Origin: Thiomicrospira pelophila DSM 1534
GTDB taxonomy: Bacteria > Pseudomonadota > Gammaproteobacteria > Thiomicrospirales > Thiomicrospiraceae
Assembly: GCF_000711195.1 (NCBI RefSeq)
Contig: NZ_JOMR01000001.1
Coordinates: forward strand, 682,001-746,000
Length of the DNA stretch: 64,000 nt
Reading direction: 5' to 3'
Shown piece after piece: positions 14,171-64,000 of the stretch. The position numbers and the translations under genes were made by a program. The notes under the pieces were generated by a model, which searched no databases, was not told where the DNA came from, and saw only the letters and a list, made by a program, of their open reading frames with translations. How positions within the stretch are numbered: the stretch's first letter is position 1; every line of letters begins with the position of its first letter.

Positions 14171-14953
14171 ATGAAATGGGCGTTGGGAGTCGAATACTTA
14201 GGTCAAAACTATTGTGGTTGGCAGCGTCAACGCCATTGTGATTCCGTTCAGTTTTTTGTCGAACAGGCTTTAAGTCGTATTGCCGCTGAGCCGATTGAGG
14301 TTTTTTGTGCTGGTCGTACCGACACAGGTGTGAATGCGATAGGACAAGTCGTTCACTTCGAAACATCGGTTGATCGTCCTGTTAGAGCTTGGTTAGAAGG
14401 TGCTAATACCCATTTACCAGATGATATTCGCATTAGTTGGGTGAAATCGGTTGATAAAGATTTTCATGCTCGCTTTAGTGCATTTGCTCGCCAGTATCGA
14501 TATGTGATCTTTAATCGGCCGGTTCGCAGTGCGGTATTAAGCGGTCGAGTCACTTGGGAGCGTAAGCCTTTAAGTGAAGATCTTATGCACGTAGCGGCTC
14601 AACCACTACTGGGTGAGCAGGATTATTCATCCTTTAGAGCGTCAGAATGCCAGGCCAGTCACGCCCGACGAGAGATACAGTTTGTTGAGGTGACACGTCG
14701 AGGTGATTTTGTGTTTATCGATATAAAAGCGAATGCTTTTTTACATCATATGGTTCGAAATATTGCTGGAACCTTAATGCAAATCGGACGAGCTGAAGCA
14801 CCAGTTGAATGGGTTGCTGATTTATTGGCATTGCAAGACAGAACCAAAGCAACGGCAACGGCACCAGCTACGGGTTTGTACTTTATTAATGCATTCTATC
14901 CACCCGAGTTTTCGATCCCGCAGGCTTCGCTGAATGAGGTTTTATGGCAGTAG
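14171..14953 (+). CDS. truA: tRNA pseudouridine(38-40) synthase
   Basis: TruA makes pseudouridine at positions 38-40 of the tRNA anticodon stem. The 260 residues begin with the usual YLGQNYCGWQRQ. The catalytic aspartate is D51 in CAGRTDTGVNAIGQVVHF, and later family blocks are YRYVIFNRPVRSAVL and NAFLHHMVRNIAGTLMQIG. It lies 8 bp after asd and overlaps trpF by 10 bp, as part of a compact plus-strand block whose order (truA-trpF) is conserved in many gammaproteobacteria. Confidence 0.95.
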   Translation: MKWALGVEYLGQNYCGWQRQRHCDSVQFFVEQALSRIAAEPIEVFCAGRTDTGVNAIGQVVHFETSVDRPVRAWLEGANTHLPDDIRISWVKSVDKDFHARFSAFARQYRYVIFNRPVRSAVLSGRVTWERKPLSEDLMHVAAQPLLGEQDYSSFRASECQASHARREIQFVEVTRRGDFVFIDIKANAFLHHMVRNIAGTLMQIGRAEAPVEWVADLLALQDRTKATATAPATGLYFINAFYPPEFSIPQASLNEVLWQ

Positions 14954-15567
14954 CAAAACGCGTCAGGGTTAAAATATGCGGTATTACACGCCCAGAAGAT
15001 GCAGTAGCCGCAGCAAAAGCAGGGGCGGATGCGATAGGCTTGGTTTTTTACGAACCTAGTCCACGCGCTGTGACAATTGAACAAGCCAAATTAATTATCA
15101 AAAATTTGCCCGCTTTTGTAACCACAACCGCTTTATTTGTAGATGCTGATCCAGTACTGATTAAGCAAGTAATAGATGAAGTGAAGATTGATTTGCTGCA
15201 ATTTCATGGCGAGGAGACGGCCGAATTTTGTCGTCAATTTTCACGTCCTTATATTAAGGCGGTAGCCATGCAGGCTGATACTGATGTAATGCAACTTGCT
15301 GAGATATATAAGGATGCTCGAGCTTTATTGCTAGATACTTACAAGCCTGGTGTCCCTGGCGGGACAGGTGAAGTGTTTAATTGGCAATGGATTCCGAAAT
15401 CTTCGATGAAACCAATCGTTTTAGCGGGCGGTTTAACGCTCGAAAATATTCAACGTGCTTTAGCTATTCCGAATGTGTGGGCCATGGATGTAAGTGGTGG
15501 CGTTGAGTTAGAAAAAGGCATAAAATCCCCCCAAAAAATAACCGACTTTATTCAGGCTACCCTGTAA
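14944..15567 (+). CDS. trpF: phosphoribosylanthranilate isomerase
   Basis: TrpF performs the Amadori rearrangement that turns phosphoribosyl-anthranilate into the linear precursor of indole-glycerol phosphate. The 207-residue TIM barrel begins RVKICGITRPEDAVAAAKAGADAIGLVF, where the cysteine is the catalytic base. Further blocks are LLQFHGEE, LLLDTYKPGVPGGTGEVFNW, and the phosphate-binding LAGGLTLENI and MDVSGGVE. It starts inside the end of truA (10-bp overlap). trpB follows after 25 bp. Confidence 0.95.
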   Translation: MAVAKRVRVKICGITRPEDAVAAAKAGADAIGLVFYEPSPRAVTIEQAKLIIKNLPAFVTTTALFVDADPVLIKQVIDEVKIDLLQFHGEETAEFCRQFSRPYIKAVAMQADTDVMQLAEIYKDARALLLDTYKPGVPGGTGEVFNWQWIPKSSMKPIVLAGGLTLENIQRALAIPNVWAMDVSGGVELEKGIKSPQKITDFIQATL

Positions 15568-15592
15568 AAATTAGATGAAAATGGATGATTAA

Positions 15593-16798
15593 ATGACAAT
15601 TGATTACGCTCAATTTCCTGACGAGAAGGGCCACTTTGGTCCATACGGTGGTGTGTTTGCACCTGAAACTCTGATGGCGCCTTTAGAAGAGCTAAAACTG
15701 CAATACCAGAAAATTAAAAATGATCCTGATTTTTTAGAGCAGTTAAAAGTTGATTATCAGGATTATGTAGGACGCCCTAGCCCGCTTTATTATGCGAAAC
15801 GCTGGAGTGATAGTCTCGGTGGTGCCAAGATTTATTTAAAACGTGAAGATTTGAACCACACGGGTGCTCATAAAATAAACAATACGATTGGTCAGGCCTT
15901 GTTGGCAAAACAGCTAGGTAAAACACGAATTATTGCTGAAACTGGCGCCGGTCAGCATGGTGTGGCGAGTGCAACGGTTGCAGCCCGTCTAGGTTTGGAA
16001 TGCGTGGTTTATATGGGCGCGGATGACGTGGTGCGTCAGGCACCAAATGTTGCTCGTATGAAAATGCTGGGCGCTAAGGTTGTGCCGGTTGAATCGGGTA
16101 CTCGTACACTTAAAGATGCCTTGAACGAGGCTATGCGTGATTGGGTCACCAATGTTGATAATACTTTCTATATTATTGGAACCGTCGCCGGCCCGCATCC
16201 TTATCCAATGATGGTGCGTGACTTTCAGTCTATTATCGGTCGTGAGGCACGCGAGCAAATTCTGCAAAAAGAAGGTAAGTTGCCTGATGCGCTGATCGCT
16301 TGTGTTGGTGGTGGGTCGAATGCGATGGGTTTGTTCCATGCGTTTTTAGCCGATGAGTCAGTAATGATTTACGGTGTTGAAGCGGGTGGGCATGGTTTAG
16401 AGACAGGTCAACATGCGGCTCCTTTGTGTAAAGGGAAACCAGGGGTATTACATGGTAATCGCACCTATTTAATGCAGGATGAAAATGGCCAGATTTCGGG
16501 CACGCATTCAATTTCAGCGGGATTAGATTACCCAGGTGTTGGGCCGGAACTGGCGTGGTTAAAAGACATTGGGCGTGCCGAGTTTGTCGCTGTTACCGAT
16601 GATGAAGCTTTACAAGGCTGGCGAGATTTAACCCGTATGGAAGGCATTATTCCAGCGTTAGAAACCAGTCATGCATTAGCTTATGCTACCAAGCTAGCCC
16701 CTACGATGCGTAGAGATCAGACTATTATCATTAATCTATCAGGACGCGGCGATAAAGACATGAATACCATAGCGAAGATTGAAGGGTTTGATTTCTGA
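15593..16798 (+). CDS. trpB: tryptophan synthase beta chain
   Basis: TrpB joins indole and serine to make tryptophan with PLP. The 401 residues include [16 protein letters not shown], the PLP lysine K94 in [14 protein letters not shown], the phosphate-binding glycine loop [13 protein letters not shown] and [10 protein letters not shown] at the C-terminus. This is the common TrpB1 form that pairs with TrpA. It is separated from trpA by a single base (TGA-G-ATG), which implies coupled translation of the alpha and beta subunits. Confidence 0.97.
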
Positions 16799-60815: not shown

Positions 60816-60853
60816 ACGACAAAGCCACCAGGTCTGGTGGCTTTGTCGTTTTT
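60816..60853 (+). terminator. strong terminator after prfC built on the palindrome
   Basis: ACGACAAAGCCACCAG (60816-60831) pairs perfectly over 16 bp with CTGGTGGCTTTGTCGT (60834-60849), followed by a T run to 60853. The centre is ACCAGGTCTGGT (60827-60838), a one-mismatch copy of the genomic palindrome. It lies 38 bp after the prfC stop. Confidence 0.92.
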
Positions 60854-61001: not shown

Positions 61002-62459
61002 ATGTTTAAGCGTCCAAACCCTCTATTCTTGTTTATTTTGATCCTATTTTTTAGTCACCAGGCCTGGTCGTCGGTGGGTACGATTGTGCTGGCTACTGGC
61101 GAGGTTGAAATTCAACGTGCGGATCAGTTAATCGAAGCAAAAACCGGATCGTCTATTTTTGAGCAAGACAAAATTCTCACGCGCGACAACGCGCGTGCTC
61201 AGCTACGCTTTAGTGATAACACCGTGATTACGCTTGGACGTAACACCGAATTCGGTGTTGAGACGTTTTTAAATGAAGGCTCTAACCAAGCTGAAGCCAA
61301 ATTCAATATCGCCAAAGGCACGTTTAAGGCGATCACTGGCCAAATCGGTAAAGCCGCCCCTGATAAATTTAAAGTCAAAACCCGTACCGCTACCATCGGG
61401 ATTCGTGGCACGATCTTTAGCGGTCGCGTTACACCTGAGCGAGAAATGATTGCGACGCTTAGCGGCCTTATTTATGTTATTGAAGATCAAACCGGTTTGA
61501 GTGTTGAAGTACCAGCCGGTCAATTTACCAATATTATGCCAGGCCAACCGCCTGAGCCGCCTAAACCTTTGACGACTCAAGAGTTGCAACACATGAACGA
61601 AGAAGGTGAAAGTGGCCAAACAGAAGGCGGGTCTGGTGAAGGTTCAGAAAACCAAGCGGGTACAAATGACGAAACTCAAGAACTTGAAAATTCGGACGAT
61701 TTAGCCGATCAAAACGACTCTATAAATAATGATCAACAGAATGTGGATACCCGTCTTGTCGATCAAGCATTGAATGCTCAAATTGAACAAGAAATCGATA
61801 GTCAGCTATCGTCAAGTTCGAGTTTGTCAGTAGTAGGGTGGAAGGTCCCATCTTATTTATCTGATTATTTTATACAGGATCCTTGTATCGATTGTCAGGG
61901 CGAGCCTGTCCAAGATGACCTCTACTTAGGTTATACGTTTGAAGTTTCACAAACTGATTTACTCGGAACCTTTGATGATAACGTGGGCTGGGGTACTTGG
62001 GAGCAGGATGGCATGTTTGGTTACTGGGTGGGTGGCACCGAAGCTAGCGCTGCAGCCGATCATATTGACTCTTTGATTCAGCAAGGGGGCTCATATTCTT
62101 ATGCAGGCCACCTTTTAGGTGAGGTTCTCGTTAATGAATCGGTTGAAGACATTAGCGCTAGTAGCTTAGGCTTGGAGTTTAACTTTGCTACAGGTGCCAT
62201 TAATGGGCATGTTTCGTTTAGTTCAGCGAGTACGGATTGGAATATGATGATTGATTCAGGTTATGTTGAATCTGGTGGATTTAGTGTGAGTACATCGGGT
62301 GATGTTAATCAAGAATCTGCGTTTGCTTACGGTTATATGGACGGCAAATTCTTTGGTAAAGAAGCTAATTCAGTAGGTGGGATTTTTAGTTTTGGAACTG
62401 AGGGGCAGTCGTTGGATTACTATGAAGCCAATGGTGTCTTTAAGGCGGTTAAGCCGTGA
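61002..62459 (+). CDS. secreted FecR-domain protein with C-terminal TbpB-like barrel
   Basis: A 485-residue exported protein. A signal peptide (1-23, FLFILILFFSHQAWS) lacks a lipobox. A FecR domain (about 25-180) follows, with VGTIVLATGEVEIQ, LRFSDNTVITLGRNTEFGVE and TRTATIGIRGTIFSG. Residues 185-262 are a disordered Glu/Gln/Asn-rich linker. The C-terminal domain (about 280-485) has a CX2C pair (C295, C298), WGTWEQDGMFGYWVGGT and the ending GKFFGKEANSVGGIFSFG from residue 448, which resembles the transferrin-binding-protein-like barrel. It overlaps the next gene by 4 bases. An exact palindrome copy lies in the signal peptide. Not an anti-sigma factor: there is no membrane helix or sigma gene. 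Confidence 0.72.
   Translation: MFKRPNPLFLFILILFFSHQAWSSVGTIVLATGEVEIQRADQLIEAKTGSSIFEQDKILTRDNARAQLRFSDNTVITLGRNTEFGVETFLNEGSNQAEAKFNIAKGTFKAITGQIGKAAPDKFKVKTRTATIGIRGTIFSGRVTPEREMIATLSGLIYVIEDQTGLSVEVPAGQFTNIMPGQPPEPPKPLTTQELQHMNEEGESGQTEGGSGEGSENQAGTNDETQELENSDDLADQNDSINNDQQNVDTRLVDQALNAQIEQEIDSQLSSSSSLSVVGWKVPSYLSDYFIQDPCIDCQGEPVQDDLYLGYTFEVSQTDLLGTFDDNVGWGTWEQDGMFGYWVGGTEASAAADHIDSLIQQGGSYSYAGHLLGEVLVNESVEDISASSLGLEFNFATGAINGHVSFSSASTDWNMMIDSGYVESGGFSVSTSGDVNQESAFAYGYMDGKFFGKEANSVGGIFSFGTEGQSLDYYEANGVFKAVKP
61057..61068. repeat. palindromic repeat ACCAGGCCTGGT (exact)
   Basis: Exact copy inside the signal-peptide codons of the FecR gene, read as HQAWS. Confidence 0.9.
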
Positions 62460-63814
62460 TTAAGTTTTTCATTCAATCATTTGTGGTTTTAAATCTTTGC
62501 GGCTTTCCGTTATATGTCTCTAGTAGCGAACAAGATACTAATTCGCAAACTCAAGCTGCCTTAAAAACCGATTTTGAAACAGCAAAGTCCTTGTTCGATC
62601 ATGGGCAGTTTAATCAAGCTTATGTGGCATTTGAGGGCTTATTAAATCGAGCACCATCCAATGCTTTGGTTAATTTTTATTTTGCGATGAGCGCGGCCGC
62701 TTTAAAGCGAACAGATCAAGCCATTGCCGCATTTGATCGGGTGTTAATGCTGAACCCGCAAAGTGTGCGCACGCGTTTAGAGTTGGCGAAACTTTATTTT
62801 GAAATGGGTGAGTATGCATTGGCACATGCCGAGTTGGATAGGGCGTTGAGCACCAACTTACCAGATAAGGTACGTCAAAATGTGATCGATTTTAAAGCGC
62901 GTATTGATAAGCAACAATCCAAACATTCTCATGCTACCACACTGGTTTTTACCTTAGGTTATGATTCTAATGTGAACAACGATATTGGTGCAGGTAATAA
63001 CTTTGCATTGGACGGTTTTGGTGGCTTAGAACTGTCGGGCAATGCCGAAGCCGAAGATTATGGGTTTGGTCAAACGCTGGTTTACAATCACGGCTATGAT
63101 TTAGGCGAGCGTGGAGCTTGGACGCTTAATAGTCAGTTTGTCGGGTTTAATCGCCTTAATAAGGATTATTCACAAAATAATGTGACATATTTTGGTGCTC
63201 TGACGGCTCCCAGTTATCAACATGATATTTATAAAGTAGCGTTTCCACTTGAGGTGGATCGAGTGTTTGTGGATGGCGAAGACTATCTTTCTAATGCTTC
63301 GTTAGGGGCGAGTTTAGAGCAACTCCTGTCCGCCAATCAAACCTTAGCGGCGGCTTATAAATTACGTTCGATGCAGTATGATGGCGACAATGCAGTTCGA
63401 GATGCTTGGTCGAATATCTATTCAATGAGTTATCGACATGCGATTGGTGAAAAGCCGTTGGTGTTAGCCGCAAATTTTAGCTATGAAAATCGTCAACAAG
63501 CAAAAAATGCGGCTTCGGATCCGGCTTCTTTAACCGAAAAAATATTCAAGTTAAACGTCAACAAAGTATTAAGCGCACGCTGGCGTTTAATGGCTGGAGC
63601 TTCGTTTACCAATACTGACTATCAACAAGAAACTGCCTTGTTTGCAAATAAACGCTCTGACCGAATTACCCGTTTTGACTTGGGCGGCCAGTATCAGCTT
63701 AACCGTGTTTCTCTGGTGAGTGCGAATCTAAGTCAGGCTTTCCACAAATCAAACCAAGGCCCTTACGAGTTTAATAAAACCCAGGCCAATCTAAATTACA
63801 TTTACCGGTTTTAG
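62456..63814 (+). CDS. TPR plus outer-membrane beta-barrel protein (DUF560/Slam-like)
   Basis: A 452-residue exported protein. A signal peptide covers about 1-24. TPR-like helices follow (about 38-150, for example FETAKSLFDHGQFNQAYVAF and AALKRTDQAIAAFDRVLMLNPQSVRTRLELAKLYF). The C-terminal 290 residues form an amphipathic beta barrel that opens with GYDSNVN (168-174) and ends with aromatic IYRF, the typical outer-membrane insertion signal. This architecture matches the surface lipoprotein assembly modulator (Slam, DUF560) family. Its start overlaps the FecR gene stop (4 bases), so the two probably work together: exporter and cargo. The function is inference. Confidence 0.7.
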   Translation: MIKFFIQSFVVLNLCGFPLYVSSSEQDTNSQTQAALKTDFETAKSLFDHGQFNQAYVAFEGLLNRAPSNALVNFYFAMSAAALKRTDQAIAAFDRVLMLNPQSVRTRLELAKLYFEMGEYALAHAELDRALSTNLPDKVRQNVIDFKARIDKQQSKHSHATTLVFTLGYDSNVNNDIGAGNNFALDGFGGLELSGNAEAEDYGFGQTLVYNHGYDLGERGAWTLNSQFVGFNRLNKDYSQNNVTYFGALTAPSYQHDIYKVAFPLEVDRVFVDGEDYLSNASLGASLEQLLSANQTLAAAYKLRSMQYDGDNAVRDAWSNIYSMSYRHAIGEKPLVLAANFSYENRQQAKNAASDPASLTEKIFKLNVNKVLSARWRLMAGASFTNTDYQQETALFANKRSDRITRFDLGGQYQLNRVSLVSANLSQAFHKSNQGPYEFNKTQANLNYIYRF

Positions 63815-63816
63815 AT

Positions 63817-64000
63817 ATGACCAGGGTCATTATCCAAGTTGTTTTGACCTTGAGTGTGTTACTGGCGAGTTTATACATCACGCTTTATGCTCCTCACCTG
63901 CAAGAACCCTTCGAATTAAAAATCAAAGATCAAATGATGATCTGGCGTGGCGAATTGCCAGCTGATCCGGCGATTGTGATTATTGATATTGATGAACAGA
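63817..64000 (+). CDS. CHASE2 domain sensor protein, N-terminal part
   Basis: The frame runs from ATG 63817 to the end of the window: MTRVIIQVVLTLSVLLASLY, a membrane helix, then HLQEPFELKIKDQMMIWRGE and PADPAIVIIDIDEQ. The D-x-(K/R)-x-R-like start of the extracytoplasmic CHASE2 domain and the VIIDIDE strand are its typical marks. Such proteins usually end in an adenylate cyclase, kinase or GGDEF domain, which is outside the window. It begins 3 bp after the TPR-barrel gene, so all three genes form one operon. Confidence 0.75.
   Translation, partial: MTRVIIQVVLTLSVLLASLYITLYAPHLQEPFELKIKDQMMIWRGELPADPAIVIIDIDEQ

Follow-up and report, generated by a model that had tools for sequence, protein, structure and literature searches.

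To our knowledge, the type XI secretion system (T11SS) has been encountered almost exclusively in nutrient capture, adhesion and immune evasion by animal-associated bacteria. Slam, the DUF560 (PF04575) protein of this system, which serves pathogens in placing proteins on their surface, has been published as a TPR domain followed by a 14-stranded barrel (PMC5449769). Neither FecR nor CHASE2 is mentioned in the T11SS papers PMC8406197 and PMC12282271. LysM-FecR proteins encoded beside CHASE2 kinases have already been described and were predicted to be periplasmic, and the input of the CHASE2 domain is given there as unknown (PMC5192318). A search of the openly licensed literature returned no description of a T11SS-type pair coupled to a CHASE2 cyclase, in keeping with the initial annotation, to which the combination had appeared not to be well described; we regard the coupling as new and infer its link to signalling.

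The locus considered here lies in the sulfur-oxidising bacterium Thiomicrospira pelophila DSM 1534, at the end of a 64,000-nucleotide stretch of contig NZ_JOMR01000001.1, the whole of which is referred to as the window. The window stops inside a run of four same-strand genes encoding, in order, a FecR-barrel protein, a TPR-barrel protein, a CHASE2 cyclase and an MBL-GAF-HD-GYP protein, with secD, secF and prfC upstream of the FecR gene and Cache and EAL genes downstream of the MBL-GAF-HD-GYP gene. A hairpin-T element read from the sequence as an intrinsic terminator (ACGACAAAGCCACCAG..CTGGTGGCTTTGTCGTTTTT; 60816-60853, forward strand) follows prfC and forms the operon's upstream border, so that the four genes look like a unit of their own. 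The first gene (61002-62459) overlaps the second (62456-63814), which has a GTG start, by 4 bp (GTGA), and the third begins at 63817 after a gap of 2 bp; the three reading frames and the overlap had been recognized correctly in the initial annotation, and its 3-bp spacing has to be amended. Only 61 of the 717 residues of the CHASE2 protein are encoded within the window (63817-64000, forward strand), the gene running on to G000:C1:747970 (L002:9971), and the fourth gene follows 9 bp downstream of it, outside the window (L002:9981-12368). No Rfam element was found.

The first gene (forward strand) encodes a cargo-type protein of 485 aa. Its signal peptide and FecR domain are followed by a low-complexity linker of acidic character and by a C-terminal handle with an eight-stranded barrel. 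By inspection, its hydrophobic N-terminus (residues 1-23) ends in AWSS and no cysteine occurs before residue 295, indicating a Sec-type (SPI) signal that lacks a lipobox cysteine and hence a secreted, non-lipidated product. T11SS cargo carries either an SPI or a lipoprotein (SPII) signal peptide and is encoded adjoining a DUF560 gene, a position that the FecR gene occupies through its 4-bp overlap and that is kept in relatives. The FecR domain (residues 24-178; 61071-61535, forward strand), beta-rich in the model, scores 53.4 bits in Pfam against a cut-off of 24, and its NCBIfam matches include the FecR-type leptospiral proteins LipL45, Lsa33 and Lsa19. At 61074-61343 the head also weakly matches the NCBIfam model of the LapA retention module (NF033682, E 6e-4), which likewise sits at the N-terminus of secreted proteins and retains them in the periplasm. 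The linker (residues 179-317; 61536-61952, forward strand) is mostly disordered in the model (pLDDT<50 at 199-276 and 288-323) and contains, just ahead of the handle, a CxxC (C295, C298; 61884-61895) that is present in the three closest Thiomicrospira copies and absent from the other aligned copies.

Several lines of evidence relate the C-terminal domain (residues 318-483; 61953-62450, forward strand) to the handle and eight-stranded barrel of TbpB and fHbp. Searched alone, residues 268-485 scored 26.5 bits against Pfam TbpB_B_D (cut-off 26) and matched NCBIfam NF041636 (slam_lipo, 'Slam-dependent surface lipoprotein') at E 6e-9, under that model's own cut-off; among 45 homologous C-terminal domains, TbpB_B_D was detected in 23, FHBP_C in 6 and slam_lipo in 28. 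In the AlphaFold model the domain, at a pLDDT of about 84, consists of a three-stranded handle, a helix and a barrel of eight strands (364-483); the entire protein reaches 61, its linker being disordered. All nine Foldseek matches in the PDB at E<0.001 were TbpB, NHBA or HpuA, which are T11SS-cargo-type proteins, and HphA and fHbp came next. VIA-align gave a Z of 15.4 for TbpB (rmsd 2.8, 168 residues) and 14.8 for NHBA (3.0, 148), with OmpX equalling the cargo-type matches when the barrel alone is considered. Profile comparison with barrels encoded beside canonical Slams yielded 96.7% (E 3e-10), against 0.2% for the reversed control. The secreted FecR protein with a TbpB-like C-terminal domain proposed initially is thus borne out by domain searches, structure prediction and controlled profile comparison, and the eight strands on which that proposal was to be judged are predicted; the TbpB-like GKFFGKEANSVGGIF is likewise present, at residues 448-462 rather than at the very end where it had been placed, as 23 residues follow it.

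The product of the second gene (62456-63814, forward strand; 452 aa) is an outer-membrane protein of T11SS/DUF560 type with a signal peptide, a TPR domain (residues 30-153; 62543-62914, forward strand) and a barrel ending in F (residues 157-451; 62924-63808, forward strand). AlphaFold modelled the TPR domain and 14 barrel strands at an overall pLDDT of 82.6, giving the N-terminal TPR and 14-stranded C-terminal barrel of Slam (PMC5449769), with GYDSNVN at residue 168. A Pfam search of the protein for DUF560 (PF04575) returned nothing, its divergence being too great for a direct match, and the relationship was therefore tested through intermediates and profile comparison. Sister proteins of the same family pass PF04575 over the full barrel (best 39 bits, cut-off 22), while hhalign aligned the subgroup barrel end to end with 16 canonical Slams (99.4%, E 2.9e-21, 291 columns) and the single barrel sequence from the window with the same set at 95.9% (E 5.2e-9). 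Controls with BcsC (0.7%) and with reversed alignments were non-significant, the latter weighing more because the BcsC alignment holds a few off-target ORFs. Structure searches returned porin-type barrels (CymA, OmpG), BcsC and TPR proteins, with no Slam entry among the matches listed, which says nothing against membership. The barrel tree largely separates canonical Slams from FecR-linked barrels, and the group containing the window's barrel (21 rows, 100/98) is entirely FecR-linked. The early assignment of this protein as a TPR plus DUF560-type barrel with GYDSNVN has accordingly survived the profile check to which its DUF560 relationship was exposed. Judged by homology and predicted structure, proteins 1 and 2 are a divergent T11SS-type exporter-cargo pair, for which export is the predicted function.

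The third gene had been annotated as a CHASE2 sensor, and over its full length the 717-aa inner-membrane product does carry CHASE2 (E 6e-64); it is more than a sensor, since the domain search also identified a class III cyclase domain (Guanylate_cyc, E 2e-24). Alignment to CyaC and CyaB places FFSDIRGFT, DKFIGDA and SDYTVIGDPVNLASR, and shows that both metal-binding Asp residues, the CyaC-type substrate Lys (DKFIGDA), the Thr (DYTVIGD) and the Asn-Arg pair of VNLASR are kept. The functional roles of these positions are established, and the combination of two metal Asp, a substrate Lys with Thr/Asp, and an Asn-Arg pair for the transition state is that of class III adenylate cyclases. The fourth gene encodes a putative cAMP-phosphodiesterase/GAF/HD-GYP protein, since its metallo-beta-lactamase domain matches the class II enzymes of that kind (PDEase_II) and is accompanied by GAF and HD-GYP domains; by inspection, the HD-GYP motifs (HDIGK, HHEKINGKGYP) and HAHLDH appear intact. 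Four cNMP-binding proteins are encoded in the genome. Just past the operon, on the other strand, lie a double-Cache gene (L002:12425-14434) and an EAL gene (14498-15685), so that, with the HD-GYP domain, c-di-GMP genes surround a cAMP operon.

Recurrence was assessed by searching 369 gammaproteobacterial genomes with the barrel protein alone (E<1e-15). Positive genomes numbered 45, from 37 genera, which is an upper bound because some of the matches are TPR-only; the family also occurs in Campylobacterota. Neighbourhoods were counted in 38 regions in which both TPR and barrel were confirmed. A FecR gene lies no more than two genes from the barrel gene in 31 of these, FecR and a cargo-type barrel are fused in one protein in 21, and a CHASE2 cyclase occurs within about 7 kb in 10; chance adjacency to FecR or to a CHASE2 cyclase was put at <1% each under rough assumed gene densities. 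The neighbourhood survey proposed in the initial annotation therefore reveals a recurrent module. The four-gene order is common to Thiomicrospira, Hydrogenovibrio halophilus (two Piscirickettsiaceae genera) and Sulfurospirillum-type Campylobacterota MAGs (L040-L045), and other relatives have the barrel gene followed by FecR, at times as tandem pairs, or a convergent or divergent cyclase gene. A fixed FecR-CTD-OMP-CHASE2 unit was consequently rejected, gene order being variable and the cyclase gene convergent or divergent at several loci.

CHASE2 was present in 19 of 21 barrel-bearing genomes compared with 61 of 121 without the barrel (Fisher p 6e-4), an association to which shared lifestyle could contribute. 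For roughly three-quarters of the surveyed barrel-FecR pairs, no CHASE2 cyclase lies closer than about 7 kb, which makes the signalling link optional. The converse rule, that a CHASE2 cyclase implies a FecR neighbour, was also discarded, as FecR occurs in the region of only 4 of the 19 top-scoring CHASE2 cyclase loci. Two tandem barrel-FecR pairs precede one CHASE2 cyclase at L156 and L157 (G008, G014) and L154 (G029), which suggests paralogous specificities. At one locus (L110:8202-12206) a FecR protein of 1334 aa carries the cargo-type barrel four times in tandem, and a second FecR-barrel gene follows. Members of the same barrel family also stand beside secreted non-FecR proteins with cargo-type C-termini (L158:8214-11065, L159:8132-9277, and also L023 and L037), and these partners share a conserved N-terminal GWGIWCG.DTYLSQQEPTAAGP-like motif.

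Seven barrel-linked proteins carry a LysM-like domain on the N-terminal side of FecR, with calls at 30.3 bits in Pfam for L126, near the cut-off for L104 and L107, and by our own model for L135, L123 and L119. Predicted LysM-FecR-TbpB-barrel fusions are located at L126:8398-10623, L104:8279-10324 and L107:8341-10386, and in L135 (two genes), L123 and L119. LysM binds peptidoglycan, so at least the LysM-bearing heads should stay periplasmic, and these relatives speak for a FecR head located in the periplasm more than for one fully exposed at the surface. Reasoning from them, the FecR head is probably periplasmic, with the C-terminal barrel engaging or crossing the outer membrane. LysM is absent from protein 1 of the window, and the C-terminal domains of the LysM-bearing proteins connect to the window type only via an intermediate group. 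The FecR head is the best-conserved part of the protein (mean identity over eight operons 49.7%, versus 32.0% for the barrel domain), which inverts the pattern of known T11SS cargo, whose heads are variable. The same excess of FecR over barrel conservation is seen in pairs with and without CHASE2 nearby; it is thus no argument for CHASE2 contact, and its use as a sign of such contact was dropped.

We tentatively propose, as a reading that falls just short of probable, that a second-messenger circuit has incorporated a divergent type XI exporter and its cargo, forming an envelope-spanning relay to cAMP. The TPR-barrel protein would recognize the C-terminal barrel of the cargo and carry it to the outer membrane or through it. 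The FecR head would meanwhile stay periplasmic on its long disordered linker, with the LysM-like domain holding peptidoglycan in some relatives. The head would then touch the periplasmic CHASE2 domain, and events at the barrel on the surface, or failed barrel export, would alter cAMP synthesis. A narrower version, in which the exporter threads a tethered protein whose (LysM-)FecR head remains periplasmic, whose TbpB-type barrel is the surface sensor and whose head drives the CHASE2 adenylate cyclase, is possible and no stronger than that; it would mean that a secretion system has been turned into a surface-to-cAMP relay. Known T11SS cargo is exported whole, which counts against the relay.

Whole export is the substance of the alternative that fares best, which we consider somewhat doubtful: ordinary soluble T11SS export would deliver the entire FecR-barrel protein to the surface or medium, FecR serving as an adhesin or binding head and the cyclase operon merely regulating expression. 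Soluble T11SS-1B cargo has the same kind of Sec signal, lacking a lipobox; this agrees with such export, as do the variable N-terminal effector and C-terminal targeting barrel of known cargo and the fact that the head matches, among other NCBIfam entries, the FecR-type leptospiral proteins LipL45, Lsa33 and Lsa19. Such export sits poorly with the LysM-like domain ahead of FecR in several relatives, with a head whose strong conservation is the opposite of that of known cargo, and with the recurrence of FecR beside CHASE2 proteins even where barrels are lacking. FecR domains act as periplasmic relay modules in FecA-FecR systems, and this, together with the operon shared with a CHASE2 cyclase and a phosphodiesterase and the LysM-bearing relatives, speaks for a periplasmic envelope monitor, in which the C-terminal barrel would dock on the TPR/barrel of protein 2 in the periplasm with no export and outer-membrane protein loading would free or hold FecR, setting CHASE2 activity in a FecA-FecR or RcsF-type manner. 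We think this unlikely, as both partners show the architecture of an export pair and the pairing of the same barrel family with non-FecR cargo-like proteins (L158, L159) points to transport. As a last reading, unrelated genes with similar-looking folds would lie together by chance. It could draw on the missing direct DUF560 match of protein 2 and on the high structure-search scores that eight-stranded barrels like OmpX also obtain, but is highly improbable given an operon conserved across two phyla, FecR near the barrel in 31 of 38 surveyed loci, and profile comparisons with negative controls.

A divergent T11SS branch is here joined by a signalling head, and often by a cyclase as well, which suggests an undescribed route by which the outer surface could report to the inside of the cell. 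If the preferred reading of an envelope-spanning relay is true, it would extend T11SS to signal transduction, provide a handle on what CHASE2 domains respond to, and explain many unannotated FecR genes.

Among described systems, FecIRA iron-citrate signalling resembles the locus in its FecR domain and in the principle of a relay from outer to inner membrane, but FecR is here a secreted head and not a membrane-spanning anti-sigma factor. The four-gene run and its flanks contain no ECF sigma factor and no TonB-dependent receptor, and FecIRA-type regulation, or membership in a FecR/FecA/FecI system, was rejected for want of an adjoining sigma factor and TonB receptor. The mtxA-CHASE2 adenylate cyclase locus of magnetotactic bacteria likewise has the gene for a secreted protein directly before a CHASE2 cyclase, although MtxA has TPR/Ig-like domains and neither FecR nor a barrel pair was described (PMC4439547). 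In the Burkholderia BiofilmReg operon and PA4035-type pairs of LysM-FecR protein and CHASE2 histidine kinase, a secreted FecR-family protein is encoded beside a CHASE2 sensor, with the LysM-FecR head seen in some of the barrel-linked relatives, whereas no TbpB-type barrel or TPR-barrel outer-membrane protein was reported and a histidine kinase takes the place of the cyclase as output (PMC5192318). The soluble TbpBBD cargo of T11SS-1B (haemophilin, HrpC and HphA, the last among the Foldseek matches of the C-terminal domain) resembles protein 1 in its Sec signal without lipobox and its single C-terminal barrel, and differs in its small haem-binding head, in place of which protein 1 has a FecR head of 155 residues with a long linker of acidic character. 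The Slam/type XI systems (DUF560, PF04575) with TbpB-type cargo share with the locus the TPR and 14-stranded outer-membrane protein adjoining a secreted protein with a handle and an eight-stranded C-terminal barrel; in contrast to them, the window's barrel family falls outside the clade of canonical Slams, the cargo head is FecR, at times LysM-FecR, and the operon is without TonB receptor or iron genes and couples the pair to a CHASE2 cyclase.
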